A DNA stretch of 23,718 nucleotides from Myxococcales bacterium UBA5297 (GTDB lineage: Bacteria; Myxococcota; Myxococcia; Myxococcales; UBA5297), in contig DHSB01000203.1 of the NCBI GenBank assembly GCA_002408385.1, forward strand, positions 1-23,718, written 5' to 3'. Numbering within the stretch: position 1 is the stretch's first letter; every line of letters begins with the position of its first letter. Position numbers and translations under genes: made by a program. Below are positions 7,452 through 18,936 of the stretch, piece by piece. Below the pieces are notes generated by a model. The model was not told the origin of the DNA. It searched no databases and worked only from the letters and a program-made list of their open reading frames with translations.

Positions 7452-8926
7452 GGGAAGACCTGCGCGTAGTCGAGCGACTCGTTGGCGTCGACAGATGGCG
7501 AGAGCGACAGCCGCGACTCGAGGTGCCGGCGCACGGCGGGGAAGAATTCGAGGAAGTTGTCCGAGCGAAACGCCGGCGGCAGATCGCGCTCCTCGGTGAG
7601 GACCACGCCGAGCGAGTCCTTGCGATGCATCGCGCCGTGGAAGATCGAGGTCGCCACCTCGTTCGCGCCCCCGGGGACCTCGAAGCCCACCGACGCGAAC
7701 GGCTGTGCGAAGGAGACGAGCACCTGCGCCGGGAAGCGGATGCCGACCGGCTCGAGCCCGGTGCGCGTCTTGTAGAGCAGGTCCGGATAGACCGACTCGA
7801 GCGTGCGGGCAAAGAGCATCTCGTCGCTCAAGCCTTCGGCGCTCTCTTCGAGCAGCCAGCCCATTTCGAGCGCCGCGGGGTCGCCGCCCGGAAGCACATG
7901 GTAGCGATCGGTCGCCGAGTCGTGGCCGAAGGCGAGCGCGAGCTCGCCGCCCTTCCAGATGGCGTACCAGGCGAGGCCTTCCGGGCGAGCGCCTTCGGGC
8001 GCGGGGATCTTGGCGATCGCGAGGTCGACGAACTCGAAGGTCGAGACCCGCTTGGCGACCTCGGGCGCCTGCTCCTGCACGGTGTTCAGCGACAGGTAGG
8101 TGACCCGAGTGTGAACGATGGGAATCGCCGCGAGCGGCGAGTCGGGGCCGCGGTCGGCCAGCGTGTCGACGACCTCGACGCCGACCTTCGGCAGCTCGTT
8201 CTGGAAGCGAATCATCTTGTCGTCGGGTGAGGCGACGAAGTTGTGCCCGTGATCGGAGACGAGGGTGAAGAGCCAGGTGCGCTCCGGATGCGCGGCCTTG
8301 AAGAGCTCGATGCGCCGGTCGATAACCTCGAGCGCGGCGACGAAGTCTTCGCGCGTCTGCATGTGGCCGATGACGTCGGTCTCGATGATGAAGCCGAGGA
8401 AGGCCTTGGTGCTTCGGGACTGCACGCGGCCCTCGAGCAGGGTGAAGATGTTGTCGAGAGTGGTGCCCAGGCTGTACTGCGGCGCCCGGTAGTTGTAGTA
8501 GCCGTTCGTCAGGCCGTTTCCGCTGAAGTCGAAGGCGCGATAGCAGGGCTTCTCGGTGAGCGGGATCGTGTGCGCCAGCAGGCCGGTGTAGCCGTTGCGG
8601 ACCAGCTCGTGCTTCTGAGGGTCGTAGTACTGGTACTCGTACGACTCGACCGGCGTCGTGTGCAGGATGCGCGACCAGGCGACGTCCGAGGTGCCAGGGA
8701 AGCTGGTGACGTGCCGGGCCATGCGCCATCCGGGAAAGGCGCCGCGCGCGACCGCCTCGGAGGCGGCGTCGATGGGGACCCCGTCGATGCCGAGGACGAC
8801 GTGGATGACCGGGTTGGCCGCCGGGTCTCCTTCGACCGGGATGCTGTTCATCAGCGAGTAGTAGTCCCAGTCGCACGCCGAGGCGAGCAGGAGGGTGGCT
8901 GCCGAGAGGGCGAGAGCTCGCCTCAT
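7448..8926 (-). CDS. Alkaline-phosphatase-superfamily (type I phosphodiesterase-like) lipoprotein
   Basis: Encodes 492 residues. ATG at 8926 overlaps the previous stop (ATGA). The signal MRRALALSAATLLLASAC gives lipidated Cys18. The alkaline phosphatase-fold metal sites are recognisable: VVLGIDG (Asp48), a SFPGTSD segment (residues 75-81) in the position of the nucleophile loop, TDVIGHM (Asp184, His188), SDHGHN (Asp225, His226) and a later HGAMH (about 433). This DxxxH plus DHG arrangement is typical of the type I phosphodiesterase/nucleotide pyrophosphatase and phosphoglycerol-transferase branches. It probably hydrolyses or transfers a phosphate ester in the periplasm or outer envelope; the substrate is unknown. 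Coupled upstream to an outer-membrane protein and downstream to an EEP lipoprotein. Confidence 0.8.
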   Translation of the reverse strand: MRRALALSAATLLLASACDWDYYSLMNSIPVEGDPAANPVIHVVLGIDGVPIDAASEAVARGAFPGWRMARHVTSFPGTSDVAWSRILHTTPVESYEYQYYDPQKHELVRNGYTGLLAHTIPLTEKPCYRAFDFSGNGLTNGYYNYRAPQYSLGTTLDNIFTLLEGRVQSRSTKAFLGFIIETDVIGHMQTREDFVAALEVIDRRIELFKAAHPERTWLFTLVSDHGHNFVASPDDKMIRFQNELPKVGVEVVDTLADRGPDSPLAAIPIVHTRVTYLSLNTVQEQAPEVAKRVSTFEFVDLAIAKIPAPEGARPEGLAWYAIWKGGELALAFGHDSATDRYHVLPGGDPAALEMGWLLEESAEGLSDEMLFARTLESVYPDLLYKTRTGLEPVGIRFPAQVLVSFAQPFASVGFEVPGGANEVATSIFHGAMHRKDSLGVVLTEERDLPPAFRSDNFLEFFPAVRRHLESRLSLSPSVDANESLDYAQVFP

Positions 8927-13101: not shown

Positions 13102-13142
13102 AAAAAAGAAACGGCCGCGCCCCGAGCATCGGGCACGGCCGT
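13102..13142 (-). terminator. Intrinsic terminator of the fusA / ATPase-SLOG operon
   Basis: Read on the minus strand, ACGGCCG and CGGCCGT form the outer stem, with an inner CCCGA-TGC-TCGGG stem, directly followed by TTTCTTTTTT (complement of 13102-13110). It lies 29 bases after the stop codon at 13171. The stem plus U-tract is a textbook Rho-independent terminator. Confidence 0.85.
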
Positions 13143-13170
13143 CTTGGCCTCGTGGCTGCCGAAGCGGCCC

Positions 13171-14463
13171 TTAGTGTCTTGCCGCCCCGAACGAACGCTC
13201 GAACAGCGCGCGGATGGCGGCGCGCCCCTCGTCGCTCAAAAAGCGCGTGCCGGTCCCGGTGAACCGCTCGCGGGTGATGACCGGGCTCTCCTCGGGCGCC
13301 CAGGCGCCGTCCTTCCAAGAAAACCAGGCGTTCTTCTCTTGGTCGAAGACGTGGACGGGCTTGCCCCAATGCTTGGCGAGCTCGACCGCCCAGCCGGTTC
13401 CGCCGCGCGCGGTGCCGTCCTCCTGGGCCAGGCCGACGTGGAAGACCTCTCCGGCGGTATTGACCTGGTGCCAGATCGACTGCAGCACCTTCTTGAAGGT
13501 CGGCGTGTCGGGATAGGTCCGGTGCATGTGGGCCTTGAGGTAGGCCGAGCTGACGTCGCCGAGATGCAGCTCGGCCTCGGAGAGCTCGACCATCCCGCGG
13601 GAGCGGTGTCCCGCGCCGCGGCCGGCGAAGGTGTAGTTCACCTCGCCCAGTCCCCAGCGCTCGGCGCAGGCGCCGAACTCGGCCTCGGCCCCGTTCGCAC
13701 CGCCCGACAGCAGCGTGAAGCTGCCGGCCGGCAGGCGCGCAGGAACCGGGGTCTCGCCCTCGGCCACCAGGCGCATCGTCTCCGGGTGGAGCTGCAGGAG
13801 GGTCGCCTCGGGCGTCGGGTTGTCGTGGTCTTTGACGAGCTGGACGTCGACGTGGCTGCCCTGCGGCTGCAGGTAGAGCGCGACGTCGATAAGCTCGCGG
13901 CACCCGTCGCACGGCGGGCGCACCGCGGGCGGCTCGCTGCCGGCCAGGGCGCGCGGCGTGGTCGCGGTGAGCCACAGCTCGGCGTTGGCGCTTTGGGTGA
14001 TGGCCTTGAGCGCGGCCAGCTCCTCGTTGACCTTGGGCCCCTTCCACGAGAAGCCGTCGACGAGGATGGCCTCGGGCTTCATGCCCATGTGCTTGTCGAA
14101 CAGCTCGAGCGTCTCCTCGAGCTTCTTCGGCCCGAAGACGCCCTCGGGGAAGGTCTTGATGACCCGGTGCCGGGCGATCGCGCTGCGCACCCCTTCGCGG
14201 TCCCGCAGGTTGGTGTGGGCCGCCAGATCGTCGAAGAGCGCGTCGTACCAGGCGCTCACGTACTCGACCGACTGGCCGATGGAGATGTGCAGCACCTCCC
14301 TGCCACGCATCAGGTCGTCGAGGCCGTTCTGGATGAGAAAGGCGGTCTTGCCGACACCGGCGCGGGCCATCACGACCCCGAGGTTGCCCTTGCCCAACCC
14401 GCCGCGAATCGACTTGTCGAGGATGCGTAGCGGGCTCTGCGCATTGACTTCTTTGCGGTACAT
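13171..14463 (-). CDS. RecA-like P-loop ATPase fused to a SLOG-like Rossmann domain
   Basis: Encodes 430 residues; AAGGAG lies six bases before the ATG and overlaps the fusA stop. Residues 1-200 are a RecA/KaiC-like ATPase: Walker A ARAGVGKT (33-40), a GQSVEYV segment (63-69) and Walker B AILVDGF (132-138). This half resembles stand-alone deltaproteobacterial proteins of unknown role. A C-x-x-C (185-188) precedes its last strands. After a linker (about 233-248), residues 249-425 look like a SLOG superfamily domain: FTLLSGGANGAEAEFG (249-264), MHRTYPDTPTFKKVLQSIW, FHVGLA, RGGTGWAVELA (353-363), KPVHVFDQ, and FTGTGTRFL. SLOG domains bind or process nucleotides and occur in DNA-uptake, cytokinin-type and immune signalling proteins. 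The fusion suggests ATP-driven action controlled by a nucleotide-like ligand. It is downstream of fusA in the same operon, 10 bp away. Confidence 0.75.
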   Translation of the reverse strand: MYRKEVNAQSPLRILDKSIRGGLGKGNLGVVMARAGVGKTAFLIQNGLDDLMRGREVLHISIGQSVEYVSAWYDALFDDLAAHTNLRDREGVRSAIARHRVIKTFPEGVFGPKKLEETLELFDKHMGMKPEAILVDGFSWKGPKVNEELAALKAITQSANAELWLTATTPRALAGSEPPAVRPPCDGCRELIDVALYLQPQGSHVDVQLVKDHDNPTPEATLLQLHPETMRLVAEGETPVPARLPAGSFTLLSGGANGAEAEFGACAERWGLGEVNYTFAGRGAGHRSRGMVELSEAELHLGDVSSAYLKAHMHRTYPDTPTFKKVLQSIWHQVNTAGEVFHVGLAQEDGTARGGTGWAVELAKHWGKPVHVFDQEKNAWFSWKDGAWAPEESPVITRERFTGTGTRFLSDEGRAAIRALFERSFGAARH

Positions 14464-14473
14464 TTCGCGCTCC

Positions 14474-16567
<2,094 letters not shown>

Positions 16568-16596
16568 GACTGTCCTCCGCCCCTTGGGGGCGGGCA

Positions 16597-16625
16597 TAGC
16601 TAGGGTAAGCGCTGTCTTGAATCAA
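16597..16625 (-). promoter_or_regulatory. Candidate promoter of fusA operon
   Basis: On the minus strand TTGATT (16625-16620) and TAGCTA (16602-16597) are 17 bases apart. Transcription would start near 16590, downstream of the ATG at 16597 and upstream of the GTG at 16567, supporting the GTG start. An 11-bp dyad CTTGAATCAAG (16616-16626) overlaps the -35. Confidence 0.4.
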
Positions 16626-17308: not shown

Positions 17309-17739
17309 AGCCTCGAGCAGCCGGCTCTCCGGCCTCCCGCTGTGCCCCTGGGGAGGGCAACCAAGCTGTCGATGGGCCCCCGCCCCCCGGTAGGCCCGTG
17401 TGTAGGCCGAGCTTGTGAGGCCGGAGTCCGAGGGCCCGCCGCGGTCGCCCCGATCGCTTCGTCGGTTGAGGGCTCGAAAGGGCGCCGGGCTTGGTGCAGA
17501 CCGATGGAGCCGGTCTCGCAACGGCGGCGCGAAATCGGCTCGGGCGGGGGCGCGCCCAGTTCTTCGCTCCAGGCTCGAGAACCGCTCGTTCGAGCGTCGC
17601 GGCGCGCCTCTTCAGGACGAAACCGGCCGCGGCGCCGGTTTGACAGATCCTAGGGAAGAGGCGCGCCGTCCGCGACGATCGGGTAGCGTGTTGGCAACCA
17701 AGCAAGCAGTTGCTTGCCTTCGCGCCTCATGGAGCACCT
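17309..17739. other. Intergenic region with nested inverted repeat
   Basis: About 430 bases with no supported gene. It contains a small hairpin GCTCG-TT-CGAGC (17584-17595) and the large nested inverted repeat at 17601-17667. GGAG at 17731-17734 is the ribosome-binding site of the NYN gene. Confidence 0.5.
17601..17667. repeat. Nested inverted repeat, 13-bp perfect arms
   Basis: Outer arms GGCGCGCCTCTTC (17601-17613) and GAAGAGGCGCGCC (17655-17667) are perfectly complementary. Inside them AACCGGC (17621-17627) pairs with GCCGGTT (17634-17640). It may be the terminator of the small membrane protein gene (no T-tract), a leader structure of the NYN gene 70 bases downstream, or a mobile palindromic element. 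Confidence 0.65.
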
Positions 17740-18936
17740 TTGATCAACGAGAATCAGCGCCGAATCGCCATCTTTCTCGACTTCGAGAACCTGGTCACCA
17801 ACACCGGAATCACCGCGGCAAGCTTCGATCTCAAGCCGGCCGTCGACCGCCTGCTCGAGAAGGGCAAGGTCATCTTCCGGCGCGCCTATGCCGACTGGAC
17901 GCGCTTCCGGGACGCCAAGTCGCACCTGCACGAGATGGGCGTCGAGCTCATCGACGTGCCCCCCTCGACCCGCACCGGCAAGAACGGCGCGGACATGCGC
18001 CTGGTCATCGACGCGCTCGAGCTCTGCTACGCGCGCGACTTCATCGACACCTTCGTCATCGCCTCGGGCGACAGCGACTTTTGCCCGCTCGCCTACAAGC
18101 TGCGCGAGAACGACCGGCACGTCATCGGAATCGGCGTGCGCGAGTCGACCTCGCGGCTGTTCGTCAAGGCCTGTGACGAGTTTATCTACCTGAAGGCGGG
18201 CTCGACCCGGAGCGAGGAGGCGGCGCGCCGGCCGCGGCGCGGCGATCGCAAGACGGCCGCCGAGGAGACCGAGGAGCGCCGGGTCGCCACGAGCAAGGCG
18301 TCCATCGCGCCGGCGGTGCCCGTCGAGGAGCCTGCAGCCGAAGAGGCCGCCGAGCTCGCCCCCGAGGCCGCGCCCGAGAAGAAGGGCGCGAAGAAGCAGG
18401 CCGAGCCAAAGAAGGCCGAGCCGGAGAAGACCGAGCCGAAGAAGGCCGAGCCGAAGAAGGCCGGCAGGAAGGCCCCGGCCAAGGAGCCCGCGAAGAGCGC
18501 CAGCGCCGCGGTCAAGCCGGCCGACGAGCCCGCCAAAGAGCCCGCGAAGCAGCCCAACGGAGGCGGGAGGCGTCGCGGCGAGCCGAGCGTGCCTGCCCTC
18601 GCCCGCAACGTCGTCTCGAGCCTGCTCGCCCAAGCCACCGGTCCCATCAACCCGTCGCTCATCAAAGAGACCATCGTCCGCAAGCAGCCCGACTTCGACG
18701 AGCGCGAGCATGGCTTCTCGACGTTCTCGAAGATGCTCGAGGCGATGGAGCGCGAAGGCCTGCTCAAGCGCCAGCAGGTGAGCGGCCGGCAGTGGTACGT
18801 CGTGCCCGCCGAAGCGACCATGGCCCCCGACTGGCCGGCAGGCCAGGTGTCTTTGCCGCTGCGCGAGCCGGGTTCGGACGACGGCGAGGTCTCGGCCGGT
18901 CCTGTCGAGCCGGGGGACGACGAAATCCCGTTCTGA
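17740..18936 (+). CDS. NYN (PIN-like) nuclease with LOTUS/OST-HTH domain and SSB-like C-terminal tip
   Basis: Encodes 398 residues. TTG at 17740 is chosen because GGAG lies five bases upstream and the NYN domain begins directly (RRIAIFLDFEN). Acidic active-site residues of the NYN/PIN-like fold are present: Asp14, Asp85 (NGADMRL), Asp111 and Asp113 (ASGDSDF). NYN spans about 7-155. Residues about 165-280 are a low-complexity linker rich in Lys, Glu, Pro and Ala with repeated PKKAEP. Residues about 285-356 match a LOTUS/OST-HTH winged helix (NVVSSLLAQATGPINPSLIKE ending GRQWYVVP). NYN-LOTUS proteins are thought to act on RNA. The last residues, EPGDDEIPF, resemble the SSB C-terminal tip DDDIPF. 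No operon partner is visible. Confidence 0.85.
   Translation: MINENQRRIAIFLDFENLVTNTGITAASFDLKPAVDRLLEKGKVIFRRAYADWTRFRDAKSHLHEMGVELIDVPPSTRTGKNGADMRLVIDALELCYARDFIDTFVIASGDSDFCPLAYKLRENDRHVIGIGVRESTSRLFVKACDEFIYLKAGSTRSEEAARRPRRGDRKTAAEETEERRVATSKASIAPAVPVEEPAAEEAAELAPEAAPEKKGAKKQAEPKKAEPEKTEPKKAEPKKAGRKAPAKEPAKSASAAVKPADEPAKEPAKQPNGGGRRRGEPSVPALARNVVSSLLAQATGPINPSLIKETIVRKQPDFDEREHGFSTFSKMLEAMEREGLLKRQQVSGRQWYVVPAEATMAPDWPAGQVSLPLREPGSDDGEVSAGPVEPGDDEIPF

Follow-up and report, generated by a model that had tools for sequence, protein, structure and literature searches.

As genome comparison demonstrates, a RecA/DnaB/KaiC-type P-loop NTPase, which in one lineage forms the N-terminal half of a fusion with a SLOG domain, has its gene immediately after that of an EF-G belonging to one clade, both in Myxococcota and in two other phylum-level groups. 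The fusion protein was analysed in a 23,718-nt stretch of DNA, hereafter the window, a term that refers to the whole stretch and not to the feature under study. It probably works together with the translation machinery, as a partner not described so far, and not as an independent defence system. What appears to be new is limited to the pairing of EF-G with the ATPase; the domain superfamilies themselves are known. Many bacteria carry extra EF-Gs of unclear purpose, and an ATPase whose gene follows one EF-G clade across several phylum-level groups offers a testable way to learn what sets that EF-G apart. Were the protein to act on EF-G or the ribosome, it would be a translation regulator of a novel type, and through the fused SLOG domain translation would be linked to nucleotide signalling.

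The fusion gene and its layout

The fusion gene (13171..14463, minus strand; ATG at 14463) encodes 430 residues and was delineated from its open reading frame and full-length homologues. The N-terminal half (residues 1–235; 13759..14463, minus strand) is the P-loop NTPase, with Walker A at residues 33–40 (ARAGVGKT) and Walker B at 132–138 (AILVDGF), and the C-terminal half (residues 245–430; 13174..13731, minus strand) is a YpsA/LOG-like SLOG domain with glycine loops at 254–260 (GGANGAE) and 354–360 (GGTGWAV). An earlier, sequence-only reading had placed the frame and all four motifs correctly, the one amendment being that the strand is minus. Pfam and NCBIfam matches of the N-terminal half to AAA_25, DnaB and KaiC were all below threshold, and the C-terminal half had no match in either collection. 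PHROGs assigned a DnaB-like family to residues 10–136 (3.9e-11) and a DprA-like family (PHROG 768; E 2.7e-5) to residues 248–373. With a pTM of 0.61, the full-length structure model leaves the relative placement of the domains uncertain.

That reading overlooked the gene directly upstream, whose adjacency is conserved and which encodes a 707-residue EF-G of mtEFG1/spdEFG1 type (14474..16597, minus strand). The ATG of the fusion gene lies 10 nt behind the EF-G stop codon, and a Shine–Dalgarno sequence, AAGGAG (14470..14475, minus strand), was read 6 nt ahead of this ATG, overlapping the stop codon (14474–14476). At the other end, 26 nt behind the stop codon of the fusion gene, a terminator-like hairpin of 14 pairs with a T run (13109..13144, minus strand; RNA fold z -2.53) was found by site scanning and RNA folding; the stretch contained five terminator-like sites, compared with 2.2 +/- 1.8 in shuffles, and no promoter-like site in the part scanned. 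Within the window, EF-G and the fusion gene look translationally coupled and appear to share one terminator end; the Shine–Dalgarno overlap and the hairpin therefore outline a compact two-gene unit comprising EF-G, the fusion protein and a terminator.

Authenticity and distribution of the fusion

The full-length search yielded 1300 homologues among 7994 candidates scored, and most of the 120 homologues listed covered 99–100% of the query. Both halves were present in 43 of 80 genome loci, as a single open frame in 42 and in two frames in one (L025); the remaining set comprised one locus cut by a contig end (L041) and 36 with the C-terminal domain alone. Separate searches with the two halves returned 2250 and 1605 proteins, fragments included, and among the matches listed free SLOG proteins of about 182–186 residues and free ATPases of about 233–236 residues were both common. 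The protein is indeed a single chain with both halves, as had been claimed, and each half also occurs alone elsewhere. A frameshift or assembly error joining two genes, named in the same reading as grounds for abandoning the fusion, is excluded by the one-frame loci and the full-length homologues and has a vanishingly small probability; nothing in the window speaks for it, although L025 and one surveyed genome (G041) do have the halves in two frames. These two breaks (L025, about 8460–8490; G041:C117, about 28013–28033) are frameshifts, either genic or from assembly.

In the Myxococcota survey, the protein was matched in 29 of 195 genomes, one match (G190) being a weak fragment; with this set aside, both halves were present in 27 of 28 genomes (in two frames in G041). 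Inside the fused clade, G193 (L119, G193:C140) has kept EF-G and the ATPase, with no SLOG part seen. Carriers of the EF-G/fusion unit include Anaeromyxobacter terrae, Sorangium cellulosum So ceGT47 and Polyangium fumosum, which opens the way to tests in cultured bacteria. Many of the records come from draft metagenome assemblies, and the genome searches score a limited number of candidates, which makes absences there soft.

Conserved adjacency to EF-G

When all long open frames from the window and the 80 loci were clustered, the sole clearly genic, widespread neighbour was the EF-G directly upstream on the same strand. It was present at every one of the 44 fused loci whose upstream DNA was covered (the window and 43 others); in these 43, the EF-G frame and the start of the fusion match lay 7–252 nt apart. 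It was found beside the SLOG gene in none of the 36 free-SLOG loci. Of 36 genomes with a free SLOG, 20 carry an unfused ATPase, which in every case has an EF-G directly upstream, 62–67% identical to that of the window. Among the Myxococcota, EF-G was adjacent in 27 of 28 genomes, with both genes at contig ends in G004.

The surveys of the two further groups share some genomes with the other sets. In the phylum of G223 (Acidobacteria record, L073), the ATPase was found in 24 of 199 genomes, with EF-G upstream in 20 of the 24; the other four loci were two related paralogs (L153 and L155), a divergent copy (L167) and a contig end (L168). EF-G was absent within about 1.5 kb of the ATPase in L153, L155 and L167. 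In the phylum of G209 (Deferrisomatales record, L059), the ATPase was found in 90 of 297 genomes, and EF-G lay beside it in 29 of the 30 loci read, the other being a contig end (L196); this inspection covered 30 of the 90 matching genomes. Fused loci also occur within these sets, one in that of G223 (L154) and four in that of G209. The frame upstream of the two Acidobacteria-survey paralogs, L153 and L155, looks like a THEP1-type NTPase.

Downstream, the widest cluster of similar frames covered 9 of 117 loci, and there is therefore no generally conserved third gene. Another, larger neighbour cluster, spanning 15 of 81 loci, was discarded: the four members scanned were two-component or GGDEF/EAL signalling proteins that had been grouped through common domains. 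The single member scanned from the next cluster was a protein kinase. A three-gene cassette of EF-G, ATPase and free SLOG was not found: the flanks of about 1.5 kb around 20 unfused ATPases (L096–L115) held no SLOG domain, and no ATPase half was seen in the flanks retrieved for the 36 loci with a free SLOG (L045–L080), whose neighbours formed only small groups (acyl-CoA dehydrogenase, sulfotransferase, Usp and thioredoxin-like). No conserved gene was obvious by eye behind unlinked EF-Gs at 16 loci.

Class of the EF-G and history of the fusion

The genome of the window has three EF-G genes (C111, C217 and the window copy). The window EF-G scored 788 bits against human mtEFG1 and at most 662 against any bacterial EF-G, whereas the reverse preference was shown by the C111 copy (575 for mtEFG1 versus 959), which is followed by an EF-Tu-looking match, and by the third EF-G (374 versus 596). 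Judged by bit scores, the window EF-G fits spdEFG1. Mitochondrial EFG1 derives from this class, as the available part of PMC4342817 states, and the available parts of PMC3150367 and PMC4342817 make no mention of an ATPase partner for spdEFG1 or mtEFG1. The window EF-G differs from spdEFG1 and mitochondrial EFG1 in coexisting with two other EF-Gs.

EF-G genes were counted in 30 genomes with a linked EF-G, selected from three surveys. Each gave two to five EF-G matches, that is, all have other EF-Gs; 22 of them contained a match of at least 51% to the C111 EF-G and the other 8 had none above 48%, and the linked EF-G is therefore usually an extra copy and sometimes perhaps the main one. The EF-G matches of G031, G032, G033, G035 and G037 span one in-frame TAA, which may be the ordinary stop codon close to the gene's end or have another explanation.

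In an EF-G tree of 132 rows, computed with a quick method, all 114 ATPase-linked EF-Gs grouped in one clade (support 98) that also held two of 16 unlinked EF-Gs, G018 and G187. The EF-Gs of fused loci formed one clade (support 99) with G018 inside, its partner lost. At this G018 locus (L199, G018:C50), the linked-clade EF-G shows 72% identity, and the ATPase was missing from the surroundings and not found in the genome. Fused sequences fell on one side of a single branch in both the SLOG tree (97/87) and the ATPase tree (96/79). The EF-G tree left out L081–L092, L095 and L116–L136 as duplicates or near-duplicates, along with partial EF-Gs, a few genomes still being present twice; the SLOG and ATPase trees omitted those loci as well, together with another eleven duplicates, L025, L041 and short rows. 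Restoring the G193 locus, L119, in a smaller run added one loss, giving two changes, read as one gain and one loss, with G193 pairing with the fused G192. One fusion with rare losses is the simplest account.

The ATPase half

The RecA core with Walker A and Walker B motifs, judged by fold and by the conserved K39 and D136, places the N-terminal half among the RecA-like P-loop NTPases. Among the other fused rows, 69 of 70 keep the P-loop residue K39, as do all 35 unfused rows; D136 is kept in 70 of 70 fused and 30 of 35 unfused rows (glutamate in the other five), and K211 in 69 of 70 fused and 34 of 35 unfused rows. The fold comes closest to that of the T4 gp41 helicase (profile match E 2.4e-9), whose E227 we take to be the catalytic glutamate. 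The aligned position, 63, is glycine in the window protein and in 60 of the other fused rows (glutamate in 8, aspartate in 2), and in the 35 unfused rows it is glycine in 15, aspartate in 11, glutamine in 3 and glutamate in 2, with few others. Position 67 is acidic among the fused rows (57 glutamates, 11 aspartates). The protein is expected to bind ATP but not to hydrolyse it efficiently, unless the missing glutamate is replaced by a different acidic residue, for example that at position 67. The earlier description as a complete P-loop ATPase holds for a RecA-like half with both Walker motifs and fails at the usual catalytic-glutamate position; likewise, a ligand-gated protein is possible, with its ATPase activity in doubt because the canonical glutamate is missing.

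Compared with the ATPase domain of T4 gp41/DnaB-type (SF4) helicases, the window protein has only about 10 residues ahead of the core (the helicase-core match starts at residue 10), and thus no DnaB N-terminal domain, and is encoded behind EF-G; it also lacks the catalytic glutamate that DnaB-type replicative helicases have at the end of strand 2, the residue aligned with E227 being mostly glycine. KaiC has two tandem RecA domains, whereas here a single one is followed by SLOG, and the NCBIfam score for KaiC/RadA (RAD55-type) ATPases was far under its 249-bit cut-off.

The SLOG half

The SLOG superfamily was reportedly defined by Burroughs et al. in 2015. The C-terminal half shows the SLOG-type Rossmann fold, the absence of which had been offered as a second refutation, and residues G258, E260, G354, G355, T356, G357 and E361 are kept in all 73 other SLOG rows. 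The LOG clade has the motif PGGxGTxxE; GGTG and E361 agree with it in 73 of 73 other rows, but a tryptophan (66 of 73) occupies the threonine position. G258 and E260 correspond to GxD/E, the substrate motif of YpsA-clade SLOG domains in the available part of PMC6459960, an equivalence taken from sequence reading and not from superposition. With respect to the superfamily members 3imk (a putative molybdenum carrier; 16% identity), LOG and YpsA, the window domain stands apart in its lack of a Pfam match, the tryptophan in the second glycine loop and the fusion to an NTPase. A profile search of PDB sequences with the SLOG alignment gave just two chance-level matches (uS11, E 1.2), and DprA was absent from the 50 entries listed in the fold comparison, which excludes nothing. 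The match at residues 248–373 is shared with the DprA-like phage proteins of PHROG 768, whereas the window gene is chromosomal and part of an EF-G unit. In the available parts of the sources, SLOG domains are nucleotide sensors or enzymes (PMC9503650, PMC6459960) that sense or process adenine-nucleotide and NAD-derived ligands (PMC9503650).

Relatives of the SLOG domain at less than 60% identity were also seen in 12 phage records, several of them longer than 400 kb (e.g. MH899585.1:42425-42883); the match in Klebsiella phage Pylas overlaps a feature that carries an RNA polymerase annotation.

Proposed function and alternatives

We give roughly equal chances for and against the fusion protein being a dedicated partner of the mtEFG1/spdEFG1-type EF-G, namely an ATP-binding NTPase that acts on EF-G or the ribosome and is tuned by a ligand of the SLOG domain. 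The NTPase would bind ATP through its conserved P-loop, probably as a ring with a DnaB/gp41/KaiC-like core, and would act on that EF-G or on the ribosome driven by it, probably as a slow ATPase or an ATP-state switch, because the usual catalytic glutamate is mostly absent. Its C-terminus acquired a SLOG domain, which also occurs as a free protein, by a single fusion in one lineage made up mainly of Myxococcota. This domain may bind or cleave an adenine-nucleotide or NAD-derived ligand and so tune NTPase activity, whereby elongation by this EF-G would be matched to nucleotide or redox state. The existence of unfused relatives and the loss of SLOG in G193 suggest that the SLOG part is accessory. 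Counting against an EF-G partner are the ATPases L153, L155 and L167, with no EF-G close by, the unlinked G018 and G187 EF-Gs inside the clade, the G193 ATPase that lacks SLOG, and the further EF-Gs of all 30 genomes inspected. More tentatively, the EF-G clade of mtEFG1/spdEFG1 type may constitute a translation module with its own ATP-binding ring protein, in which the myxococcotal SLOG sensor makes translocation respond to a signal derived from NAD, ADP-ribose or AMP; such a module would impose a small-molecule throttle on elongation that is absent from canonical EF-G.

Neighbouring genes need not interact or share a pathway, which counts against an EF-G partner and leaves room for co-transcription alone, with a RecA/DnaB-like and DprA-like protein for DNA repair or uptake expressed together with EF-G for growth-rate control, as the DnaB-like and DprA-like PHROG matches would allow. 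We consider this unlikely, as the two genes stay in the same order and on the same strand across several phylum-level groups, no other neighbour being retained, and the linkage is confined to one EF-G clade. An equally doubtful candidate is an active hexameric motor of DnaB/gp41 type that remodels RNA or stalled ribosomes with EF-G, the SLOG domain being a LOG-like N-glycosidase acting on a nucleotide or tRNA: the gp41-like fold and profile match, the nearly invariant K211 and the invariant E361 of the GGTG loop argue for it, whereas the replacements at the catalytic-glutamate position in fused and unfused rows, the loop tryptophan in place of the LOG threonine and the lack of any nucleic-acid-binding domain seen argue against it.

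The sequence-only reading had suggested a nucleotide-centred conflict or defence system, which would be in keeping with the occurrence of SLOG domains in conflict systems (PMC9503650, available part). We nevertheless regard this placement as highly improbable: PADLOC (2023 library) gave zero families up to E 10, inheritance is mostly vertical with EF-G in a two-gene unit that includes a translation factor, and, EF-G apart, no gene, defence-like or otherwise, recurs widely next to the fusion gene. A partner of the EF-G remains our preferred reading. That the protein matches no described system was upheld in Pfam, NCBIfam, PADLOC and the open-access literature; the last, a scope outside which most subscription papers lie, contained no description of the EF-G/ATPase pair or its SLOG-fused form.

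Elsewhere in the window, positions 17710–18936 (plus strand) encode a 408-residue protein that combines an NYN ribonuclease domain (1.6e-33) and an OST-HTH/LOTUS domain (8.2e-6) with a long low-complexity linker of K, E, A and P.
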